Assembly (NCBI GenBank): GCA_026387665.1 | Contig: JAPLLG010000007.1 | Span: 1-64,000, forward strand | DNA length: 64,000 nt | Direction of reading: 5' to 3' | Origin: Nitrospirota bacterium | GTDB lineage: Bacteria; Nitrospirota; Nitrospiria; Nitrospirales; Nitrospiraceae | Shown: positions 24,194-53,936 of the stretch, in pieces | How the letters are laid out: each line of letters begins with the position of its first letter | Position numbering within the stretch: position 1 is the stretch's first letter | The notes under the pieces: model-generated | The model's input: the letters and a program-made list of their open reading frames with translations, nothing else | Database searches by the model: none | What the model was told of the DNA's origin: nothing | Position numbers and translations under genes: made by a program

Positions 24194-26077
24194 TCATGAG
24201 ACGTCACGCCCGAGATGCCACATCTCCAGCACAAGCAAGGCATAGATTTGGTCGGCAAAGTTCCGTCGGCCCGACTCATGTTCCTGGAGCAGCCATTGAA
24301 CATACTCAGGCTTCACGTAGCCACGCCGCTTAATTGCAGCATCCGACAAGAGATCCCTCACCATTTCACGAAGGTCTTCGCGCAGCCAACGGGCAAGTGG
24401 CACACGAAACCCCAGCTTCGCTCCCTTGACGATGGAAGGTGGAAGCACAGGCTGCAGCGCCTTGCGCATGAACCCCTTCAGCCTCCAGCCGGAAAATCTG
24501 GTTGAGGTAGGAAGCGAATAGGCAAACGAGAGCAACTCAGGATCACAGAAAGGCACGCGCAGCTCGAGCGAATGGGCCATGCTAAGCCGGTCTCCCATGC
24601 GAAGGAGATCGTCCGGCAGGTAGGTCTGCAAGTCCAGGCCCATGGCCCGCTCGGACGGATCATCGGAAGGCCAGTTATCAAAGAGGCGTCGATAGTCCGC
24701 CGCCGTATCCGTCGCCCCCCTCAGTCCAGAAAAGTCTTGGGCAAAGGCCGAGGCACCCCACTCTGATGGCACAAACGTGATCCACAGCCAATATTGCTCT
24801 GCCAGCGACAGATGCCCGTCCCGCAGAAACCGTTTCACACGGCCAAGCTGATCCCGGCTGCCTGCCCCCTCGGGAATCCTGGGCGCGAGAGAAGTACCGA
24901 TCCATGCTCGCAGGCACTGAGGCACCTGGGCATAGTGCGATGCAGCGCGAACGCCAAGATAACGAGGGTAGCCGCCGAATAGCTCGTCCCCGCCGATGCC
25001 GGACAAAGCGACCGTGACCGAACGTCTAGCCACTTCGGACACGAGATAGGTGGGAATGGCCGAAGAGTCGGCAAAAGGCTCTCCCATCGCTGCGACGATC
25101 TTCGGCAGCAAAGTCACCGCATCAGGGCGGAGCCGTTCCTCTGTATGATCGGCACCGAAGTGATCCGCTAACAGCCTGGCCTGATCCAATTCGTTATAGG
25201 AACGGTCTGCCTCATCTTCGTACCCGACTGAGAAACTGCGGATTGGTCCATTGGTCACTTGCCGCATCATGGCCAGAATCGATCCTGAATCGAGCCCGCC
25301 AGACAGAAACAGCCCGAGCGGCACATCGCTCACCAGATGGGCCTGTACCCGCTCACGTAAAAGTTCGAGGAACCGGTCCTCAGCATCGGCTTGCGACAGC
25401 CTAGTCCGAGATCCAGGCACATCAGTGGGATGGAAATACTGTTTTGTTTCGACCCTGCCATTAACGACTTTGAGCAGCTCTCCTGGCTGCAATTGACGAA
25501 CTCCCTCGAACAGAGTGCCAGGCCCCGGTACATAGAGCAGGGTCAGGTATTGCGCGATAGCCCGTGGGGCCACAGTATGAGGGGGGAGCGATTCCAACAG
25601 AGCCGGCAACTCCGAGGCAAAGGCCAGGCCGCCTGGCCAGGTCGCATAATAGAGGGGCTTGATCCCCAAGCGATCACGGACTAACAGCAGCGTCTGTCGT
25701 TCACGGTCCCAGAGCGCATAGGCGAACATCCCCTTGAGCCGCCTGACTCCCTCCTCGCCTTCCTGCTCGTAGAGATGAACCAAGACCTCTGTGTCACTAT
25801 TGGTCGCAAAACGATGACCCTTGCCGATCAGCTCCTCGCGCAGTTCGCGATAATTATAGATCTCTCCGTTGAACACCACCCAGACCGTGCGATCTTCATT
25901 GGCGATCGGCTGCTGCCCCCCTTGGGGATCGATCACGCGCAACCGCTGAATCCCCAGCAGGACTCCCGGCTCCCGGTGACTGCCGCTCTCATCAGGCCCC
26001 CGGTGCACGATCCGGCGCATCATCCGATCTAGCGTCGCCTCGTCTCCGCTCCCGACGATTCCGCAAATCCCACACAT
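24194..26077 (-). CDS. asnB: Asparagine synthase (glutamine-hydrolysing) family protein
   Basis: 627 residues. An N-terminal class II glutaminase domain with the catalytic Cys2 (MCGICGIVG) and RIVHRGPDESG, then the ATP-pyrophosphatase domain with LFLSGGLDSGS near residue 254-264. All key residues are present, so it can use glutamine as the amide donor. In a polysaccharide locus such enzymes often amidate uronic acids or other sugar carboxylates instead of making free asparagine; that role is inferred here. Its start overlaps the methyltransferase stop by 1 nt (TGATG). Contrast the lasso-type homologue at 48209, which lacks Cys2. Confidence 0.92.
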   Translation of the reverse strand: MCGICGIVGSGDEATLDRMMRRIVHRGPDESGSHREPGVLLGIQRLRVIDPQGGQQPIANEDRTVWVVFNGEIYNYRELREELIGKGHRFATNSDTEVLVHLYEQEGEEGVRRLKGMFAYALWDRERQTLLLVRDRLGIKPLYYATWPGGLAFASELPALLESLPPHTVAPRAIAQYLTLLYVPGPGTLFEGVRQLQPGELLKVVNGRVETKQYFHPTDVPGSRTRLSQADAEDRFLELLRERVQAHLVSDVPLGLFLSGGLDSGSILAMMRQVTNGPIRSFSVGYEDEADRSYNELDQARLLADHFGADHTEERLRPDAVTLLPKIVAAMGEPFADSSAIPTYLVSEVARRSVTVALSGIGGDELFGGYPRYLGVRAASHYAQVPQCLRAWIGTSLAPRIPEGAGSRDQLGRVKRFLRDGHLSLAEQYWLWITFVPSEWGASAFAQDFSGLRGATDTAADYRRLFDNWPSDDPSERAMGLDLQTYLPDDLLRMGDRLSMAHSLELRVPFCDPELLSFAYSLPTSTRFSGWRLKGFMRKALQPVLPPSIVKGAKLGFRVPLARWLREDLREMVRDLLSDAAIKRRGYVKPEYVQWLLQEHESGRRNFADQIYALLVLEMWHLGRDVS

Positions 26078-37948: not shown

Positions 37949-39724
37949 TCATGTCAACGCCTGCAGCTGACGCAATTCGTTGAATCGTCCCTGGGCGCGC
38001 GTGAGCTCAGTCCACGAGCCCGACTCCACAATACGCCCCTGCTCCATCACATAAATCCGATCAGCCCGCTGAATGGTCGCAAGGCGATGGGCCACGATGA
38101 CAACACTCATACTTCGGGCCAGCGTCTCAAGCGTCTTCTGGATCATGAACTCAGATTCGGTATCCAACGAACTGGTAGCCTCGTCCAGGATCAGGAGCGC
38201 TGGCTTCCGGATCAATGCCCGCGCGAGAGCAAGGCGCTGGCGCTGCCCCCCCGAGAGCAATACCCCCCGACTTCCCACAACGGTTTCGTAGCCCTGCGGC
38301 AGCCGTTGAATAAACTCGTCTGCATGGGACAGTCTGACGGCCGCTTCAACCTCTTCAGCTGTTGCGGTCGGCTTCCCCCACAATAAATTTTCCCGTATCG
38401 TCTCATTGAACAAACTGACTTCCTGCGGCACGTAACCGCACTGCCGATGCCAGTCATTCACATTCAGCTGATGCAAGGGCACTCCGTCCACCAACACGTC
38501 CCCCTGCGTGGGACGGATAAATCCCATGAGCAAGTCAATCATCGTCGTCTTCCCGCTCCCGGAAGGCCCCACGATCGCAATCGTTTCTCCCTTCCGCACC
38601 TCTAACGTCACACCACGAAGAACCGGAGCCTTATTCTCATAGGCAAACCACGCGTCATCGACACGAAATCCCTGCTGAATTCCGTGAAAAGGCACCCCCC
38701 CATTCCGTTCACGATGCTCTTGTGCAAGACTGGTTAGATCGGCCACATGCGCCACACTGGGAAGCAGCGACAATATCTCGTGCATAGTCATCTGGAGGTC
38801 AGACACCCTCGGTGTCAGACGAAATACGATGATGAGCAACACCATGATGTCGGACATCGGCATCTTGAAAACAGTCAGAGCGGCGTACAAGCCAGCCAGG
38901 AGTAGCGTCGCCGTCAGGGGCTGATACAAGGCACCCACCATCGTGCGATTTCTGGAATCTCGAATTTGCACATTCGCCAACGCCTGCACAGCCTTGGCGA
39001 ACCGATCGGCAGCATCACTAACGCCCCCGAAACCTTTCACCAATTTCGCGCTAGCCAGTTTTTCAACCGCCTCTTCCTGCACGCGTGCATACGCCAGGGT
39101 CGTTTCCGCCCCGTATTCCTGCCCCTTAGCCACACGCGCGCGGAAGAGATACAGGCCTGCCCCGGCAATCCCAACCGCAACCACGGCCATTTGCCACGAA
39201 AAAATGAGGGCCAGCGAGACGTAAATGAGAACCGCCACGCACTCGCGCACCAAGGCCATTAGATTCAAAAATGCGGCAGCAGCTCTTATAGGATCCAGAG
39301 TGAGTGCATTCGTCAGAATTCCGGTCTTCTGCTTCGCGATAAACTCCCAGCGCGCAGTAAGAATAGCTTCATACAAGGTGCTTCTGAGGAAACCGGCATA
39401 CTGAAAACGTGTACTATTGACCAGTCGTTCATTGAGAATGACCACGAGGCTCTGCAGGAAAAATATGGCCAACAGGACTATCAGCACACCCCCAAGCGTC
39501 GGGGAAAACCCGACCGCCTGCGTTGCCTGTTGGAACCACCCCAGTATCTTGGAGGGCGGCCCCGGCGTCCCGGTTGTTTCCATGCCTGCCAATGAAAACA
39601 TGGGTGCCAGCAACGCCAGCCCAACCCCTTCCAGCAAATTAGAGGCAATTCCAGCAGACACAATCAGCCACATCCTGAACGGATAGCGGTGGATCAGCCC
39701 TCTGGCAAACTCTACAACCGTCAC
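37949..39724 (-). CDS. ABC exporter, membrane and ATPase domains fused (MsbA-like)
   Basis: 591 residues with six membrane helices in the first 310 and an ATPase domain after. Walker A is VGPSGSGKTTMIDLLMG, signature LLSGGQRQRLALARAL, and Walker B LLILDEATSSLD. It is the only clear membrane translocator in the locus; no Wzx flippase is seen, so it may flip the lipid-linked glycan across the inner membrane. Confidence 0.93.
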   Translation of the reverse strand: MTVVEFARGLIHRYPFRMWLIVSAGIASNLLEGVGLALLAPMFSLAGMETTGTPGPPSKILGWFQQATQAVGFSPTLGGVLIVLLAIFFLQSLVVILNERLVNSTRFQYAGFLRSTLYEAILTARWEFIAKQKTGILTNALTLDPIRAAAAFLNLMALVRECVAVLIYVSLALIFSWQMAVVAVGIAGAGLYLFRARVAKGQEYGAETTLAYARVQEEAVEKLASAKLVKGFGGVSDAADRFAKAVQALANVQIRDSRNRTMVGALYQPLTATLLLAGLYAALTVFKMPMSDIMVLLIIVFRLTPRVSDLQMTMHEILSLLPSVAHVADLTSLAQEHRERNGGVPFHGIQQGFRVDDAWFAYENKAPVLRGVTLEVRKGETIAIVGPSGSGKTTMIDLLMGFIRPTQGDVLVDGVPLHQLNVNDWHRQCGYVPQEVSLFNETIRENLLWGKPTATAEEVEAAVRLSHADEFIQRLPQGYETVVGSRGVLLSGGQRQRLALARALIRKPALLILDEATSSLDTESEFMIQKTLETLARSMSVVIVAHRLATIQRADRIYVMEQGRIVESGSWTELTRAQGRFNELRQLQALT

Positions 39725-47504: not shown

Positions 47505-47789
47505 ATGAATATCCGCATCCCTAGCGATGTCGTCTTTCGAGATCTGTCAGGCGAGGGAGTCTTATTGAACCTGGCCACCGGCACCTACTTCGGGCTCGAT
47601 GAGGTCGGCACGAAATGCTGGCACCTGATCGGCTCACAGGGAACGTTGGAGAACATCGTCACGGCCCTGTTGCCCGAGTATGAGGTTGACGAACCGCGAC
47701 TCCGAAGCGATCTCACACGGCTCCTCCAGCAACTGACCGACAAAGGACTCGTCGTAATTGATCAGACAGAAACTCCAGCGGCTCACTGA
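47505..47789 (+). CDS. PqqD-like RiPP recognition protein (lasso B1/RRE)
   Basis: 94 residues. VVFRDLSGEGVLLNLATGTY and CWHLIGSQGTLENIVTALLP follow the PqqD pattern, a winged-helix fold that binds the leader of a ribosomal peptide precursor. As the first gene of a cluster with a B2 protease, a cyclase and a precursor it should act as the stand-alone recognition element (B1 or E). The ATG at 47505 has AAAGG upstream. The downstream B2 gene starts inside its last codons. Confidence 0.9.
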   Translation: MNIRIPSDVVFRDLSGEGVLLNLATGTYFGLDEVGTKCWHLIGSQGTLENIVTALLPEYEVDEPRLRSDLTRLLQQLTDKGLVVIDQTETPAAH

Positions 47790-48201
47790 CCTTTCGCTCA
47801 GAGACTGGCTCTGGCTTCCACCGCTCGTCTTGTCGGCCCTCGCGATCGCCATGGCAGTCAAGCTCGCCCCGCTCCCTGACATTATCCGATTCCTCGACCG
47901 ATCAGCCCGCCACCCTTGGATCGCCTTCCTGCAAATTGGCAATCGACTGCACGATCTGGACGAACTCGTCCGCCTGACCGGATTAGCTGCCAGGGTCGTC
48001 CAGGGGCCCGGTTGCTGCCTCAGCCGATCGCTGCTGCGTTTCTGGTTGCTCCGCGCCAGGCAAGAACCGGCCGAGTTGCTGATCGGCGTCGCAAAGAATG
48101 GAGACTTGCTTCAGAGTCATGCCTGGATCGAACAGCAAGGACTCGCCATCGATGCAGGTCACGAGCTGAACCGAACCTTCGTGCCTGTACTCCGGTTCTG
48201 A
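47758..48201 (+). CDS. Lasso peptide biosynthesis B2 protease (transglutaminase-like)
   Basis: 147 residues. GPGCCLSRSLLRFWLLRARQ (Cys87 the probable nucleophile), LQSHAWIEQQG (His121) and IDAGH (Asp132) give the Cys-His-Asp triad of the B2 family, which cuts the leader from the precursor. A hydrophobic N-terminus (16-36) suits membrane contact. The start is a TTG at 47758 with AAAGGA upstream; it overlaps the PqqD-like gene by 32 nt, an unusually large overlap. Confidence 0.92.
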   Translation: MIRQKLQRLTDLSLRDWLWLPPLVLSALAIAMAVKLAPLPDIIRFLDRSARHPWIAFLQIGNRLHDLDELVRLTGLAARVVQGPGCCLSRSLLRFWLLRARQEPAELLIGVAKNGDLLQSHAWIEQQGLAIDAGHELNRTFVPVLRF

Positions 48202-48208
48202 GGACTCT

Positions 48209-50143
48209 ATGAGCGGCATCGTCGGCAGCTACAATCTGAATGGCAAACCGGCAGAGCCTCTCGTGATCAGACGCATGACGAACCGCCTCGCGCACCGTGG
48301 ACCGGACGGGCTGACCTGTTGGCTTGACGGGCCGGTCAGCTTGGGCCATGCCATGCTTCAGACCACCCCTGAATCGCTCTTCGAACGGCAGCCTCTCTGT
48401 GAGGGCGCCCTCTGCCTCACGCTGGATGGCCGGATCGACAACCGGGACGAACTACGAACAGCTCTTGAGTCTCATGGCGCAACCATGCGTAGCGACACCG
48501 ATGCCGAACTGGTGCTGCGTGCCTACCAATGTTGGGGAAACGATTGCCCGATCCATCTCCTGGGCGACTTTGCCTTCGCCATCTGGGACGCCACCAAACA
48601 CGAACTCTTCTGTGCTAGAGATCAGATGGGAATCAGACCCTTCTATTATTTCGCCAATGACCGGACCTTCCTCTTCGCCTCTGAGCTCCGCCCCCTGCTC
48701 GACCATGCCGAGGTCCAACCTGAGCTGAACGAAGGCATGATCGGAGAATACCTGGCCTGCCAGATCACCAGCCAGGAAGAAACCCTCTACCGCCATCTCT
48801 TGCGCCTTCCGCCCGGTCATTGCCTCACCGTGAGTCCTGGCCGGTTCCGGGTGACCAGATACTGGGACTTCGATTCCTCCAAAGAGCTCCATTATGGAAA
48901 CGACGAAGCCTATCGCGATCATTTTCTGGCCCTCTTAACGGAATCGGTCCGCTGCCGTCTGCGGAGCCACAAGTCTGTCGGCTGTTACCTGAGCGGAGGG
49001 CTCGACTCCTCCTCGGTCGTCTGCCTCGCAGCCTCTCTCAAGAAAAACGGACTGGCCACTCAGGGCCTGGAAACATTCTCTCTGCTCTTTCCAGGACTGG
49101 CCTGCGATGAAAGCCCCTATATCCAGGACATAGTCCAACAGTGGGATATCCCCTCGAACACGATCTGCCTGGAAGCAGAACCGGAGGCATCATTTGTTGA
49201 ATGCGCCAAGCGAGACCGCGACTTTCCCGGTTATCCGAATGGAACTATGGGGAACCCCTTGAGAGCCCTCGCCAGGGATCGCGGGGTTCGGGTGCTCCTG
49301 ACCGGAACAGGCGGAGACGAATGGCTGACCGGCAGCTATCTCGGAGCAGGAGACCTCCTTCGCCAAGGAAAGCTTCAAACTTTACATCGCCGGCTCCGGA
49401 ATGACTTTGGCGCAACAGGCTTTCTCGACACCTTCGACATGGCCCTGCGCTATGGCCTCTGGCCACTGTTTCCTCAAGCCATGCGCCAAATCATCAGGCA
49501 GGGACTGGGACGTCATGGACTTCTCTCCTGGCTCAACCCAGATTTTGCCAGAAGGATTCATTTGCGCGACCGGATCCAACTGGAGCCGGACCGGAGTTCC
49601 TGCGCGAGCCTGGCGCAAGCAGACATTGCCCTGACCCTCAAGAGCGGCTGGTGGCCCCATATGTTCGAAATCGAAGACCGTGCGGCCTCCTGGTTCGCAC
49701 TGGAAGAACGGCATCCCTTTGCGGACCGTCGGCTCGCCGAATTTGCCGTATCGTTGCCGGAAGACCAACGTTGGCGAGGCCAGCAAACCAAATATCTCCT
49801 CCGCCAGGCGATGCGAGGCATCCTCCCAGAAACCGTGCGACAACGAACGACTAAGGCGGAATTCTCCACCGTCTTCCTCCAGGCTTTGCGCACCCTTGGA
49901 GGCAGCCATTTCTTCGACTCGTTACAGATCACGGCCATGGGCTGGGTCGATGCAGACAAGATTCGGCAGGCCTATTCCAACATAGAAGCCGGGGCAACCA
50001 ATAATCCTGACTCAGCCCCATCCGGCCTCTGGTCTCTCTGGATGGTCATCGGAATCGAACTGTGGCTTAGACATATGGCAGACCGCGACCGTTCATCGGA
50101 AGAGACAGCTCTTCACTGGAAGCCTGCAGCCCAATTGGCGTAA
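48209..50143 (+). CDS. Asparagine-synthase-like lasso cyclase (C protein)
   Basis: 644 residues. The glutaminase-like N-domain starts MSGIVGSYNL: Cys2 is replaced by Ser, so it cannot hydrolyse glutamine, as in many lasso cyclases. RLAHRGPDGLTCW follows. The synthetase domain has GCYLSGGLDSSSVVCLA (near 257-273), the ATP site that adenylates a side-chain carboxylate of the core, and LLTGTGGDEWLTGSY. It would form the isopeptide ring. The gene follows the B2 gene by 7 nt with GAGGA upstream, and the precursor gene comes 36 nt later. Confidence 0.93.
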   Translation: MSGIVGSYNLNGKPAEPLVIRRMTNRLAHRGPDGLTCWLDGPVSLGHAMLQTTPESLFERQPLCEGALCLTLDGRIDNRDELRTALESHGATMRSDTDAELVLRAYQCWGNDCPIHLLGDFAFAIWDATKHELFCARDQMGIRPFYYFANDRTFLFASELRPLLDHAEVQPELNEGMIGEYLACQITSQEETLYRHLLRLPPGHCLTVSPGRFRVTRYWDFDSSKELHYGNDEAYRDHFLALLTESVRCRLRSHKSVGCYLSGGLDSSSVVCLAASLKKNGLATQGLETFSLLFPGLACDESPYIQDIVQQWDIPSNTICLEAEPEASFVECAKRDRDFPGYPNGTMGNPLRALARDRGVRVLLTGTGGDEWLTGSYLGAGDLLRQGKLQTLHRRLRNDFGATGFLDTFDMALRYGLWPLFPQAMRQIIRQGLGRHGLLSWLNPDFARRIHLRDRIQLEPDRSSCASLAQADIALTLKSGWWPHMFEIEDRAASWFALEERHPFADRRLAEFAVSLPEDQRWRGQQTKYLLRQAMRGILPETVRQRTTKAEFSTVFLQALRTLGGSHFFDSLQITAMGWVDADKIRQAYSNIEAGATNNPDSAPSGLWSLWMVIGIELWLRHMADRDRSSEETALHWKPAAQLA

Positions 50144-50179
50144 TCTCTTATCGTAAAATACACAAAGGAGGAACGTGCC

Positions 50180-50338
50180 ATGGCTCAAGAACCAGTCCCG
50201 ACCGACAAGAAAAAACCCTATCGCTCCCCCACCCTGACAGAATACGGAAACGTGGCCAAGCTCACGGAAGAGAAGGAGGGATCAAAAGCGGACGGAAGGT
50301 CTGGCATGCTCATGTTCACACAGAAGCAGGATAAATGA
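50180..50338 (+). CDS. Lasso-type RiPP precursor peptide
   Basis: A 52-residue ORF with a strong AAAGGAGG site. The leader fits the lasso consensus YxxPxLxxxGxxxxxT exactly: Tyr14, Pro17, Leu19, Gly23, Thr29, as in KPYRSPTLTEYGNVAKLT. If Thr29 is at -2, as usual, the core begins at Glu31 and runs EKEGSKADGRSGMLMF onward to Lys52. Asp38 would be core residue 8, the normal isopeptide acceptor position. Glu at position 1 is atypical (Gly is usual). Core Arg40, Ser35, Ser41 and Thr47 could be targets of the methyltransferase and kinase encoded next. The product is a RiPP, but a true lasso fold is not proven. Confidence 0.88.
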   Translation: MAQEPVPTDKKKPYRSPTLTEYGNVAKLTEEKEGSKADGRSGMLMFTQKQDK

Positions 50339-50371
50339 TCCAATTCACCAGTCACCCTATGAGGCCGCTTC

Positions 50372-51514
50372 TTGTCGCTCATCCTGGATGAACACCGCCA
50401 GTACCTCTCCGATCTGGCTCGCCTAGCCGCCTTTCGTGCTGCCATTCAGGAAGTCATCAAGCCTGGCGACGTCGTCGTGGACCTTGGTGCAGGAACCGGC
50501 ATTCTAGGCCTGCTCGCCTGCCGAGCCGGCGCTGCACGCGTCTACTCGATCGAGAGCACCGGCCTGATCCAGCTCACCAGAGACATCTGCGCAGCCAATG
50601 GATGCAGCGATCGAACCCAGTTCATCAACGAGCTGTCCGCCCAAGCCTCGCCCCCGGAACTGGCGGATGTCGTCGTCGCCGACCAGATCGGCTGTTTCGG
50701 TTTCGAAGCAGGTCTCTTTGAATATTTCCGTGATGCGCGAACTCGATTTCTCAAGCCAGGCGGAATCACGATTCCTTCGCGAATCGACCTAGTCGTCGCA
50801 CCGATCGACGCGCAACAGCTGCGAGACCAGGTCGAGTTCTGGAATACGGCCCCAGCAGAATTCGACTTTCGTCCGGTCAGAGCCCTCGCGGTCAATAGCA
50901 GCTACCCGGCCACCTTCACCCCTGACCAACTCCTAGGTGACCCGGCGATCCTGGCTTCCCTCGCCGCCTCCAATGCGCCCCCGTCCTTCCTGGGTCTGAC
51001 GGCGACTGCGACGGTCTCCCGACCTGGGACTCTTCATGGAATTGGTGGATGGTTTTCAGCAACTTTGTCTCCATCGATCACGCTGACCAACTCGCCCCTG
51101 AGCGAAAACAGGATCGATCGCCAGAACATGTTTTTCCCCATCGACCAGCCGGTCCCTGTCGTCCTCGGTGACCGCATCCTCATCACCATGAACATCCTGC
51201 CGACTGACATGGTGATCACCTGGAACGTGGCTGTACTGGGAGCCACCGGAGACGTCATCAAGGCCAGCTTCTCCCATTCGACCTTCCACGGCATGCTCCT
51301 ATCGAAGGAATCGTTACAGAAAGCCAAGCCTGATTTCGTCCCGATCCTCACCCCCAGGGGCGACGCCAGACGAACAGTCCTGGAACTCTGTAATGGCAAG
51401 AGCACTCTCGCGGAAATCGAGCGCGAAACCTACCGGCGCCATTCAACACTGTTCCGCAGCCTCGATGAAGCAGCGAAATTCGTTACCGAAGTCACGACCC
51501 GCAATACCCTATGA
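50372..51514 (+). CDS. PRMT-like methyltransferase fused to a PqqD-like domain
   Basis: 380 residues. The N-terminus (DEHRQYLSDLARLAAFRAAI) and motif I VVDLGAGTGILGLLA (residues 35-49), Glu61, and ADQIGCFGFEAG (Asp104, Glu112, in the place of the double-E loop) resemble protein arginine methyltransferases; the first catalytic Glu appears as Asp. A beta-barrel region follows. Residues about 322-376 (RRTVLELCNGKSTLAEIERE) look like a PqqD/RRE leader-binding domain. So the enzyme could bind the precursor leader and methylate the core, with Arg40 the simplest target. The start is a TTG at 50372 with GAGG 7 nt upstream. Confidence 0.82.
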   Translation: MSLILDEHRQYLSDLARLAAFRAAIQEVIKPGDVVVDLGAGTGILGLLACRAGAARVYSIESTGLIQLTRDICAANGCSDRTQFINELSAQASPPELADVVVADQIGCFGFEAGLFEYFRDARTRFLKPGGITIPSRIDLVVAPIDAQQLRDQVEFWNTAPAEFDFRPVRALAVNSSYPATFTPDQLLGDPAILASLAASNAPPSFLGLTATATVSRPGTLHGIGGWFSATLSPSITLTNSPLSENRIDRQNMFFPIDQPVPVVLGDRILITMNILPTDMVITWNVAVLGATGDVIKASFSHSTFHGMLLSKESLQKAKPDFVPILTPRGDARRTVLELCNGKSTLAEIERETYRRHSTLFRSLDEAAKFVTEVTTRNTL

Positions 51515-52539
51515 CCCTCTCGCTGGATCGGCCATCCCAACTCCTCTGCTACCAAGTCAGCGGCATCACCCTGGGCAGCGACGTACCGCTCTTGGAGCTG
51601 GCTCCCACTGAAGGTCTAAACCCTGCCGATGGCTGGGACATCCGCGTCCGTTTTCTTCCTGAGTCGACTCAGTCCCTCTGCCCCTCCTCCTGGTTCCTCA
51701 CCATGGCATTGCCGGGCGAGGAGCCTTGGTTATCTTGCGCAGACATCGAAGAGCAGGCCCTGCTCGGAGGCAAGCCAGGCTATCTTCTCCGCTTGCATGA
51801 CCTAGCAGATTTCCTGGTGGACCGGCAGGGAACGGATGTCGTCGCGCTGGCCAGCCACGAGACGCCGCCGGAGACGCTGCATCACATCCTCTTAAACCAA
51901 GTGCTCCCATTGGTGCTCAATCTACGAGGACAGGATGCACTCCATGCCACAGCCGTGCTGACGCCTCAAGGCATCTGCGCCTTCGCCGGACCGGCCGGCG
52001 TCGGCAAGTCCACGCTGGCCGCCAGCTTCCTGCTCGCTGGCTATCCGGTGATCAGCGACGATTGTCTCGTGCTCAAGGAACAGGAGGGCAGGATCGTCGC
52101 AGTGCCAGGCTATCCAGGGCTCCGGCTCTGGGACGATGTCGCCCAAAGTCTCTCTCTCGATCCAGGCCACCTCAGCTCAGTGGCCCATTACACAGCAAAG
52201 CATCGTTTGCTTCTCCCAAACCAAAGCCAGGCCTTTCCAACTGAGCCACTCCCACTCACTCGGCTCTACATCCTCTCGCCACCCGAAGCCCCTGAAGCTC
52301 GCAACAAGGCAGCAGCGATCAGTCTCCGGCCATTCCAGCCGCGCCACGCCTTCATGGAACTCCTCTCCTGCCTCTTCCGACTGGACATCAGAGACAAAAC
52401 GATGCTGGCCAGGCAGTTCTGCTTTATCGAACGGCTCGTGGACCAAGTTCCCGTCAAACAATTATCGATCCCTCAGACCGTCTCGGCCCTGCCAGCGGTC
52501 CGTGATGCAATCCTGGCCGATCTGCTCCATGAAATCTGA
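51511..52539 (+). CDS. HPr-kinase-like lasso peptide kinase
   Basis: 342 residues. GPAGVGKSTLA (160-170) is the P-loop, HATAV lies just before it, and VISDDCLVL with Asp183/Asp184 matches the HPr kinase catalytic region. Homologues in lasso clusters phosphorylate a C-terminal Ser of the precursor; here the precursor ends in Lys, so another Ser/Thr or a different substrate is implied. It overlaps the methyltransferase by 4 nt and the next gene by 11 nt. Confidence 0.88.
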   Translation: MTLSLDRPSQLLCYQVSGITLGSDVPLLELAPTEGLNPADGWDIRVRFLPESTQSLCPSSWFLTMALPGEEPWLSCADIEEQALLGGKPGYLLRLHDLADFLVDRQGTDVVALASHETPPETLHHILLNQVLPLVLNLRGQDALHATAVLTPQGICAFAGPAGVGKSTLAASFLLAGYPVISDDCLVLKEQEGRIVAVPGYPGLRLWDDVAQSLSLDPGHLSSVAHYTAKHRLLLPNQSQAFPTEPLPLTRLYILSPPEAPEARNKAAAISLRPFQPRHAFMELLSCLFRLDIRDKTMLARQFCFIERLVDQVPVKQLSIPQTVSALPAVRDAILADLLHEI

Positions 52540-53761
52540 CCAGCAAGACAGGCTCTGCTTCCCCTTGAGCCATAAAGACGAAGTACTCCTCTGCCTGGCC
52601 CATCCGAAGCTGAGCACGAAACGGAGCCAACGATTAGCCAACCTCCTGGTTTCCCCCACGGACTGGGCGGAACTCCTCGACCAGGCAGACCGGCATGGGA
52701 TCACACCTCTGCTCCATCATCACCTGAAGCAGGCTCCCGCTCTCACGATTCCCGAGACAACAAGAACGACATTGGCCGAGAGATCCCGTTCCTGCCTGGC
52801 CTGGAATCTCCGCCTCAGTCACGAACTGCTCTATCTCTTAGACCGATTCAACGAGGCAGGCATTCCCGTCATGCCCTTGAAAGGCCTCTACCTGGCCGAT
52901 CTCCTCTACAAAGACTCCGCCCTGCGCCCGACGTCGGATCTCGATCTCCTGGTGAAGGTCCAAGATTTTGAGGCAAGCCAGCAGATCCTCGAAGAAGCAG
53001 GCTGCACGAAACTGGCGGATGAGGAGCAAGGAGCGGAATACCACGTCTCCTATGTCACGACCAATGAACGAGCGGGACACGTGCTGATCGAATTACATAG
53101 GGCCCTGGGGGAAAGTCATGTGGCAGGACTCGACATCGAAGCGGTCTGGCGCTCGGCTACTCCGATCATCTGGGAAGGACGGACGATCTGGACAATGGCC
53201 ATCCCGGACCTCTTCCTCTACACCTGCCTCCATGCCGTAAAGGATGGGCTGGCCTCGATACGATCCTTACTCGACATCACTTTGTTGCTGGAGCGCTATG
53301 GCCAGAACTTGCCCTGGCAGGAACTGACACAACGAGTGAAACAAGCGAGGATCGAGACCCCCGTCTCTCTCAGCCTTCTCTTGAGCCGTGAGCTGTTGGA
53401 AGCCTCTCTCCCCTCAGAATTTCTGGCAGCCATCCGGCCCTCGCGAAACCTGAGCCGGCTCCTCGGCCAGGCGCTCTTCAGATGGAGAGGCGGAGTCCTG
53501 CATGTGCCGCAAGAATTGCTCGTGGGACCCTTCATGGCCCTGCTGATGTTGTGCTGGGAGGACTCGCTCAAAGGAAAACGGCGGCACCTACGTCGCAACC
53601 TACTGCCCTCAGAGAAGCTGCAAGGCCGCTGGATATCGCAAACGCACACCTCGACACCATTCCGTCGCTACCAGGCCTGGCTCTGGGAAATCTGCCTTCG
53701 TCTCACCAGTCAACTGACTGCCCGCTCCCATTCCAGACAGCCAGGCGCTCCGCGCCATTAA
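52529..53761 (+). CDS. Nucleotidyltransferase-family protein of the RiPP cluster
   Basis: 410 residues. LRPTSDLDLLV (Asp137, Asp139) and the preceding PLKGLYLADLLY form the metal-binding site of the Nucleotidyltransf_5-like family, often found beside HPr-kinase-like lasso kinases. The middle and C-terminal regions are helical. It may add a nucleotide or sugar-phosphate group to the peptide; the chemistry is not established. It ends the cluster, 98 bases before tRNA-Arg. Confidence 0.87.
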   Translation: MKSDQQDRLCFPLSHKDEVLLCLAHPKLSTKRSQRLANLLVSPTDWAELLDQADRHGITPLLHHHLKQAPALTIPETTRTTLAERSRSCLAWNLRLSHELLYLLDRFNEAGIPVMPLKGLYLADLLYKDSALRPTSDLDLLVKVQDFEASQQILEEAGCTKLADEEQGAEYHVSYVTTNERAGHVLIELHRALGESHVAGLDIEAVWRSATPIIWEGRTIWTMAIPDLFLYTCLHAVKDGLASIRSLLDITLLLERYGQNLPWQELTQRVKQARIETPVSLSLLLSRELLEASLPSEFLAAIRPSRNLSRLLGQALFRWRGGVLHVPQELLVGPFMALLMLCWEDSLKGKRRHLRRNLLPSEKLQGRWISQTHTSTPFRRYQAWLWEICLRLTSQLTARSHSRQPGAPRH

Positions 53762-53859: not shown

Positions 53860-53936
53860 GCCCCCGTAGCTCAGTTGGATAGAGCATCGGTTTCCTAAAC
53901 CGCAGGTCACCCGTTCAATTCGGGTCGGGGGCACCA
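53860..53936 (+). tRNA. tRNA-Arg (anticodon CCT)
   Basis: Complete cloverleaf: acceptor GCCCCCG/CGGGGGC, D arm GCTCAGTTGGATAGAGC, anticodon loop TTCCTAA (CCT, reads AGG), T arm ACCCGTTCAATTCGGGT and encoded CCA at 53934-53936. One mismatch (T27/C43) caps the anticodon stem. Confidence 0.96.

Follow-up and report, generated by a model that had tools for sequence, protein, structure and literature searches.

A compact run of seven genes in a Nitrospirota genome (2.64 Mb, 99.8% complete) raises the question of whether it directs the synthesis of a lasso peptide and, if so, how the enzymes encoded beside the lasso genes would tailor the product. The stretch of DNA analysed, referred to here as the window, comprises bases 1-64000 of contig C7. 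Our reading is that the locus is a functional lasso-peptide gene cluster with the product and tailoring proposed below, to which we assign a probability of about 0.8 based on sequence evidence.

Gene content and precursor design

The open reading frames confirmed what the first-pass annotation had described, namely seven plus-strand genes that either overlap or are closely spaced (7-36 bases apart; Table 1). Five of the seven score above curated family cut-offs (PqqD, B2, cyclase, lasso leader and NTP_transf_5), among them each of the four genes earlier assigned to a lasso core. The PqqD-type protein B1 was recognised by PF05402 (64.9 bits, cut-off 23.4) and by NF033536 lasso_PqqD_Bac at 57.4 bits, under the cut-off of 80, and the B2 peptidase by NF033537 (55.4 bits, cut-off 33) with the conserved Cys87 and His121 intact. 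The PqqD and B2 matches are the only ones in the genome, and both lie inside the cluster. The cyclase matches NF033535, 'lasso peptide isopeptide bond-forming cyclase', at 539.3 bits (cut-off 525) and retains an intact SGGLDSSS ATP site; as noted previously it lacks Cys2, residue 2 being a Ser that is conserved family-wide. The nucleotidyltransferase call is upheld by PF14907 (189 bits, cut-off 31.2) and by conserved Arg133, Asp137, Asp139 and His190. The kinase falls below family cut-offs (TIGR04352, 30.4 bits against 200, E 2e-7), yet its identification as HPr-kinase-like is supported by His145, Lys166, Asp183 and Asp184, which are invariant columns intact in the window and correspond to the His-Lys-Asp-Asp residues described as catalytic in paeninodin-type kinases (PMC9266682). 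The lasso core is intact and ordinary, and the tailoring set is unusual and coherent.

Table 1 Features of the seven-gene locus, in window coordinates
Feature	Position	Strand	Remarks
PqqD-type B1	47505-47789	+	94 aa; discrete RiPP recognition element
B2 transglutaminase-like leader peptidase	47758-48201	+	TTG start; 32-nt overlap with PqqD
C, Asn-synthase-like lasso macrolactam cyclase	48209-50143	+	
Shine-Dalgarno AAAGGAGG	50164-50171	+	8 nt ahead of precursor ATG; read from sequence
Precursor, 52 residues	50180-50338	+	stop codon 50336-50338
Leader, residues 1-30	50180-50269	+	YRSPTL at -17 to -12, Thr at -2
Core EKEGSKADGRSGMLMFTQKQDK, residues 31-52	50270-50335	+	predicted ring Glu1 amine to Asp8 side chain
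Methyltransferase, PRMT-fold, 380 aa	50372-51514	+	TTG start
Methyltransferase C-terminal three-helix domain	51341-51511	+	weakly PqqD-like
HPr-kinase-like peptide kinase	51511-52539	+	overlaps methyltransferase by 4 nt
NTP_transf_5 nucleotidyltransferase	52529-53761	+	overlaps kinase by 11 nt

The precursor gene is preceded by what reads as a strong ribosome-binding site. Its leader matches the NF033521 lasso leader model (21.3 bits, cut-off 19), with Y14, P17, L19 and T29 placed by alignment, and the proposed boundary of the core at residues 31-52 is the one expected if the Tyr of YxxPxL lies at -17, as a published rule states (PMC10368454). The core, earlier called odd, instead follows an ordinary lasso design with an E1/D8 ring: it reads E1-KEGSKA-D8, contains a single Arg (Arg10, within DGRSG), ends in Lys, and has a computed monoisotopic mass minus water of 2452.18 Da. 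Counting against this ring, Glu1 is unusual as a ring residue, as are Lys1 and His1 of the nearest relatives. To place the window precursor in its family, precursors were gathered by leader motif alone and 49 cores were compared, with L197 (two precursors, distant), L200 (ending MMMP) and L204 (acid at 10-11) standing outside this set. All 49 carry Asp or Glu at core positions 7-9, whereas shuffling of the cores averages 8.6 of 49 and never exceeds 19. The rows share descent, so this count does not amount to 49 independent events. The acid is at position 8 in 33 cores, at position 9 in 15 and at position 7 in one; it also tells against the proposed reading that a Nitrospira lenta bin, the closest relative of the window, has its acid at position 7.

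The methyltransferase and its acceptor site

The extra enzyme of the cluster is a PRMT-type methyltransferase, a rewired relative of the enzymes by which animals and plants methylate arginine in their proteins. The earlier PRMT-like call is borne out by Pfam PRMT_C, by a PDB sequence search that retrieved PRMT2 and PRMT6 (8e-25 to PRMT2), and by the fold, since the AF2 model (pLDDT 92.9) contains the PRMT arrangement of Rossmann domain and beta barrel, with a Foldseek match of 4e-27 to PRMT6 and a TM-score of 0.87 to PRMT1. The enzyme shares its whole fold and SAM motifs with PRMT1, PRMT2 and PRMT6 and with non-lasso PRMT homologs from Nitrospirota (n=23), which served as the comparison set. 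Unlike PRMT1, PRMT2 and PRMT6, however, it carries an added three-helix domain and departs from the PRMT pattern at both the double-E loop and the THW loop of the arginine pocket, where Asp104 replaces the first double-E Glu and Asp249-Arg250 replace His-Trp. Among 55 readable lasso-cluster rows, 52 have Asp at position 104 and 54 have Arg at position 250; the non-lasso homologs have Glu at the former in 23/23 and Trp at the latter in 22/23. Across the lasso-cluster methyltransferases the THW loop reads x-Arg-(Arg/Gln), with the second Arg of the family RR pair being Gln in the window, a departure that weighs against the acceptor proposed below.

Two features make arginine an unlikely acceptor for the methyl group, namely the changes to the guanidinium-binding site and the lack of any basic residue in many family cores. 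The alternative that fares best is that the enzyme still acts as a peptide arginine methyltransferase on core Arg10 and that the site changes merely tune it, which would be in keeping with the true PRMT fold, the retained SAM-site motifs, the presence of one Arg in the window core and the persistence of an acidic pair, Asp104 and Glu112, at the double-E loop. We nonetheless consider arginine methylation improbable, as 20 of the 49 cores having this enzyme contain no R, K or H, and every readable lasso-cluster row except one has x-Arg at the THW loop, whereas non-lasso homologs mostly keep His-Trp. With a non-arginine acceptor preferred, the Arg that substitutes for His-Trp suggests an anionic group, of which the C-terminal carboxylate is the simplest candidate; this is our leading guess, and a carboxylate acceptor is plausible at less than even odds. 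A broader and, taken as a whole, rather doubtful proposal is that a PRMT became a lasso tailoring enzyme through a changed acceptor site and an added PqqD-like helical domain, that it methylates an anionic group (the precursor C-terminal carboxylate or the kinase-made phosphate), and that it marks a multi-phylum family with a conserved terminal Cys-Leu. If true, a PRMT-derived lasso methyltransferase with a changed pocket would bring a new chemistry to lasso tailoring and clearly exemplify a substrate switch by an arginine methyltransferase.

The added C-terminal domain comprises about 57 residues in the lasso-cluster methyltransferases and is absent from nearly all non-lasso homologs, the exception being L043, a non-lasso homolog on a short contig. 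This accounts for the methyltransferase fusion reported initially, of which the extra domain stands, although it is a short three-helix piece with a weak likeness to PqqD. The PqqD model TIGR03859 was picked in 22 of 28 members with a weak best E of 0.005, and the top PDB fold match is likewise a weak one to PqqD (3g2b, E 1.0, prob 0.91); a profile comparison with the PqqD of the cluster itself gave no match. The model of the domain consists of three helices alone, whereas a strict RRE is defined by three strands followed by three helices (PMC12710340), and it is with this reservation that we refer to the domain as PqqD-like.

In the literature searched, lasso methyltransferases fall into two kinds, StspM/LasF and PIMT; this full-text search, whose scope left out most subscription papers, returned neither a PRMT-type enzyme in a lasso cluster nor a Nitrospira lasso study. 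Lassomycin-type clusters (StspM, LasF) encode a C-terminal carboxyl methyltransferase and share with the window a SAM methyltransferase predicted to tailor a lasso precursor, which StspM modifies in its linear form. StspM, however, was modelled on mitomycin-7-O-methyltransferase, whereas the window enzyme is a PRMT extended at its C-terminus by a helical domain. The lihuanodin and cellulonodin-2 clusters also combine lasso genes with a methyltransferase, but theirs is a PIMT-type, aspartimide-associated enzyme that targets an Asp within the ring of the threaded product; the window enzyme has the PRMT fold, and the window-family cores have no conserved Asp beyond the ring acceptor. Separately, we observed another set of PRMT homologs from bacteria (L052-L066), outside lasso clusters, in which the Glu and His-Trp motifs are intact. 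This group is common in one Nitrospirota family and may comprise genuine bacterial arginine methyltransferases.

Proposed biosynthesis and phosphorylation

In the pathway we propose, the PqqD-like B1 would bind the YRSPTL leader, and tailoring would take place on the linear precursor, ahead of cleavage and cyclisation. The kinase would phosphorylate a Ser or Thr, most likely ring Ser5, the resulting phosphate may be extended by the nucleotidyltransferase, and the PRMT-fold enzyme would add a methyl group. B2 is predicted to cleave after residue 30, upon which the cyclase would adenylate Asp38 and close an 8-residue macrolactam onto the freed amine of Glu31. The tail, GRSGMLMFTQKQDK, would presumably be threaded through the ring, and the product possibly exported by a general ABC exporter.

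The predicted product is very probably a lasso-type macrolactam. It could instead be a branched macrolactam that is not threaded, and so no true lasso, given that threading is not readable from sequence and that the family tails are small, flexible and Gly/Met-rich, with few bulky plug residues. Characterised lasso-type cyclases yield threaded products, however, and we regard the unthreaded form as distinctly unlikely.

With respect to phosphorylation, the closest known systems are the paeninodin, pseudomycoidin and Bradymonas bsf clusters (PadeK, PsmK-PsmN, BsfK-BsfN), which make phosphorylated lasso peptides. The window resembles them in its cyclase, YxxPxL leader and discrete B1 and B2 proteins, in an HPr-kinase-like kinase with the His-Lys-Asp-Asp motif and, as regards psm and bsf, in the nucleotidyltransferase, which occupies the position of PsmN and BsfN. 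In contrast to this group, the window cluster has no ABC exporter and an extra PRMT-fold methyltransferase, its core has no C-terminal Ser, and most of its relatives end in Cys-Leu. The initial likening of the kinase and nucleotidyltransferase to paeninodin-type clusters is supported by the catalytic motif of the kinase, but the C-terminal Ser is missing. Paeninodin kinases phosphorylate the C-terminal Ser of the core, so the phosphorylation site must differ here. In BsfK, a related kinase, the target is core Ser3, and every one of the 49 family cores has a Ser or Thr within positions 1-8 (at position 4 or 5 in 41 of them), which together make a ring residue the likely kinase target. Phosphorylation of a Ser or Thr of the core is, on this sequence comparison, likely. 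PsmN has been linked to the addition of a hexose onto the phosphate, and by analogy its homolog in the window may have a similar role.

Relatives, terminal Cys-Leu and genomic site

A search for the methyltransferase over 396 Nitrospirota genomes identified orthologs (54-65% identical) in 11 other Nitrospiraceae genomes, all located beside a precursor, kinase and nucleotidyltransferase, with PqqD and cyclase also adjoining in 9 of the 11. The comparison with other Nitrospira that the first-pass annotation had called for thus found the genes and their order recurring, including the precursor with its conserved leader, on whose presence the earlier proposal had been made to depend. In the remaining two, G199 and G289, the PqqD, B2 and cyclase genes lie on a separate contig (L105, L104), with cyclases 69-72% identical to those of intact Nitrospira clusters, suggesting that the core and tailoring modules can function when encoded apart. 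A Nitrospira subclade (L037, L039, L163, L171) has the order precursor-methyltransferase-kinase-nucleotidyltransferase, with the core genes not nearby. A named-genome scan of approximately 85,000 species genomes detected 52 methyltransferase loci, most of which carry lasso genes, labelled as Nitrospira, Acidobacteria, Rokubacteria, Myxococcota, Deltaproteobacteria, Binatota, Binataceae, Burkholderiales and others, although single taxon labels may be wrong because nearly all loci are from metagenome bins. The closest, at 89% identity, is that of the Nitrospira lenta bin, and no plasmid match to the methyltransferase was obtained. Recurrence of this gene set in 11 further Nitrospirota genomes, and in many of other phyla, shows that the cluster is not a chance arrangement.

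A terminal Cys-Leu ends 38 of the 49 cores, and Cys occurs at no other place in any core. Its retention in otherwise freely varying sequences points to a shared function in Nitrospira and poorly studied soil lineages. The window core does not have this ending. In the methyltransferase tree the window falls with N. lenta, L159, L032 and L033 in a supported group (97/91) next to a Cys-Leu member; all five lack Cys-Leu, so the ending was probably lost in the window clade. Cys-Leu as the sole target of the methyltransferase was rejected, since the window clade retains the enzyme without any Cys; among clusters without the methyltransferase, a thin control of three (L098, L102, L103), none has Cys-Leu. 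A Cu(I)-binding product as the family function was also considered. Nitrospira members do have Met-rich tails, for example GGGGSVPDGMSGMAASMMMMCL, but the tails of the Burkholderiales members and of many Acidobacteria are not Met-rich, and the idea was dropped.

In relatives, the cluster is often flanked by a glycosyltransferase-like gene on one side and an ECF sigma/anti-sigma/TadA block on the other. This site is empty in the window genome (L245, G000:C2, 9055-12786), where about 140 bases separate the glycosyltransferase-like and anti-sigma genes; the genome contains no close copy of the ECF sigma gene, which leaves the anti-sigma gene without its partner. The window cluster is instead found just upstream of a tRNA-Arg (53860-53936). 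We rejected the ECF sigma factor, present beside 9 of the 11 Nitrospira clusters, as a cluster regulator: regardless of lasso content, 106 of 127 Nitrospiraceae genomes have it, so it is core to the family rather than a cluster gene. A dedicated exporter is, as previously stated, missing within the cluster, and an ABC gene at 37949-39724 was discarded as a candidate, being in an apparent polysaccharide region and 28% identical to the exporter near some relatives. A long minus-strand run (17730-45835) reads like polysaccharide biosynthesis and export genes and includes a second Asn-synthase-like gene (24194-26077) in which Cys2 is kept (MCGICG).

The loss of Cys-Leu in the window clade, the empty usual site and the absence of a nearby exporter could suggest a decaying remnant. 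Against this, all seven frames are open and a comparison of conserved columns found the catalytic residues unchanged, the window deviating from the family at four positions only, none with a known catalytic role. In addition, the state without Cys-Leu is common to five sequences, down to approximately 65% identity, whose enzymes are conserved too, and we consider decay very unlikely compared with a functional cluster. Least probable of all, with hardly any weight, is that the locus is one of the sets of PqqD, HprK-like kinase, NTP_transf_5 and B2 common in Nitrospirota and is merely lasso-like, for while homologs of these four genes do cluster in dozens of other Nitrospirota loci, most of them without a leader-motif precursor, those sets have no conserved precursor, whereas here the cyclase and precursor exceed lasso-specific cut-offs and are both conserved with the methyltransferase.

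The sets of B2, PqqD, HPr-kinase-like kinase and NTP_transf_5 without a detectable lasso precursor (L106-L157) form a recurrent Nitrospirota arrangement in their own right. A Rhodobacteraceae bin (L197:1765-2400) encodes two adjacent lasso-like precursors, one of which has a very Met-rich tail (RMVMAMFMTMTMRMFM).
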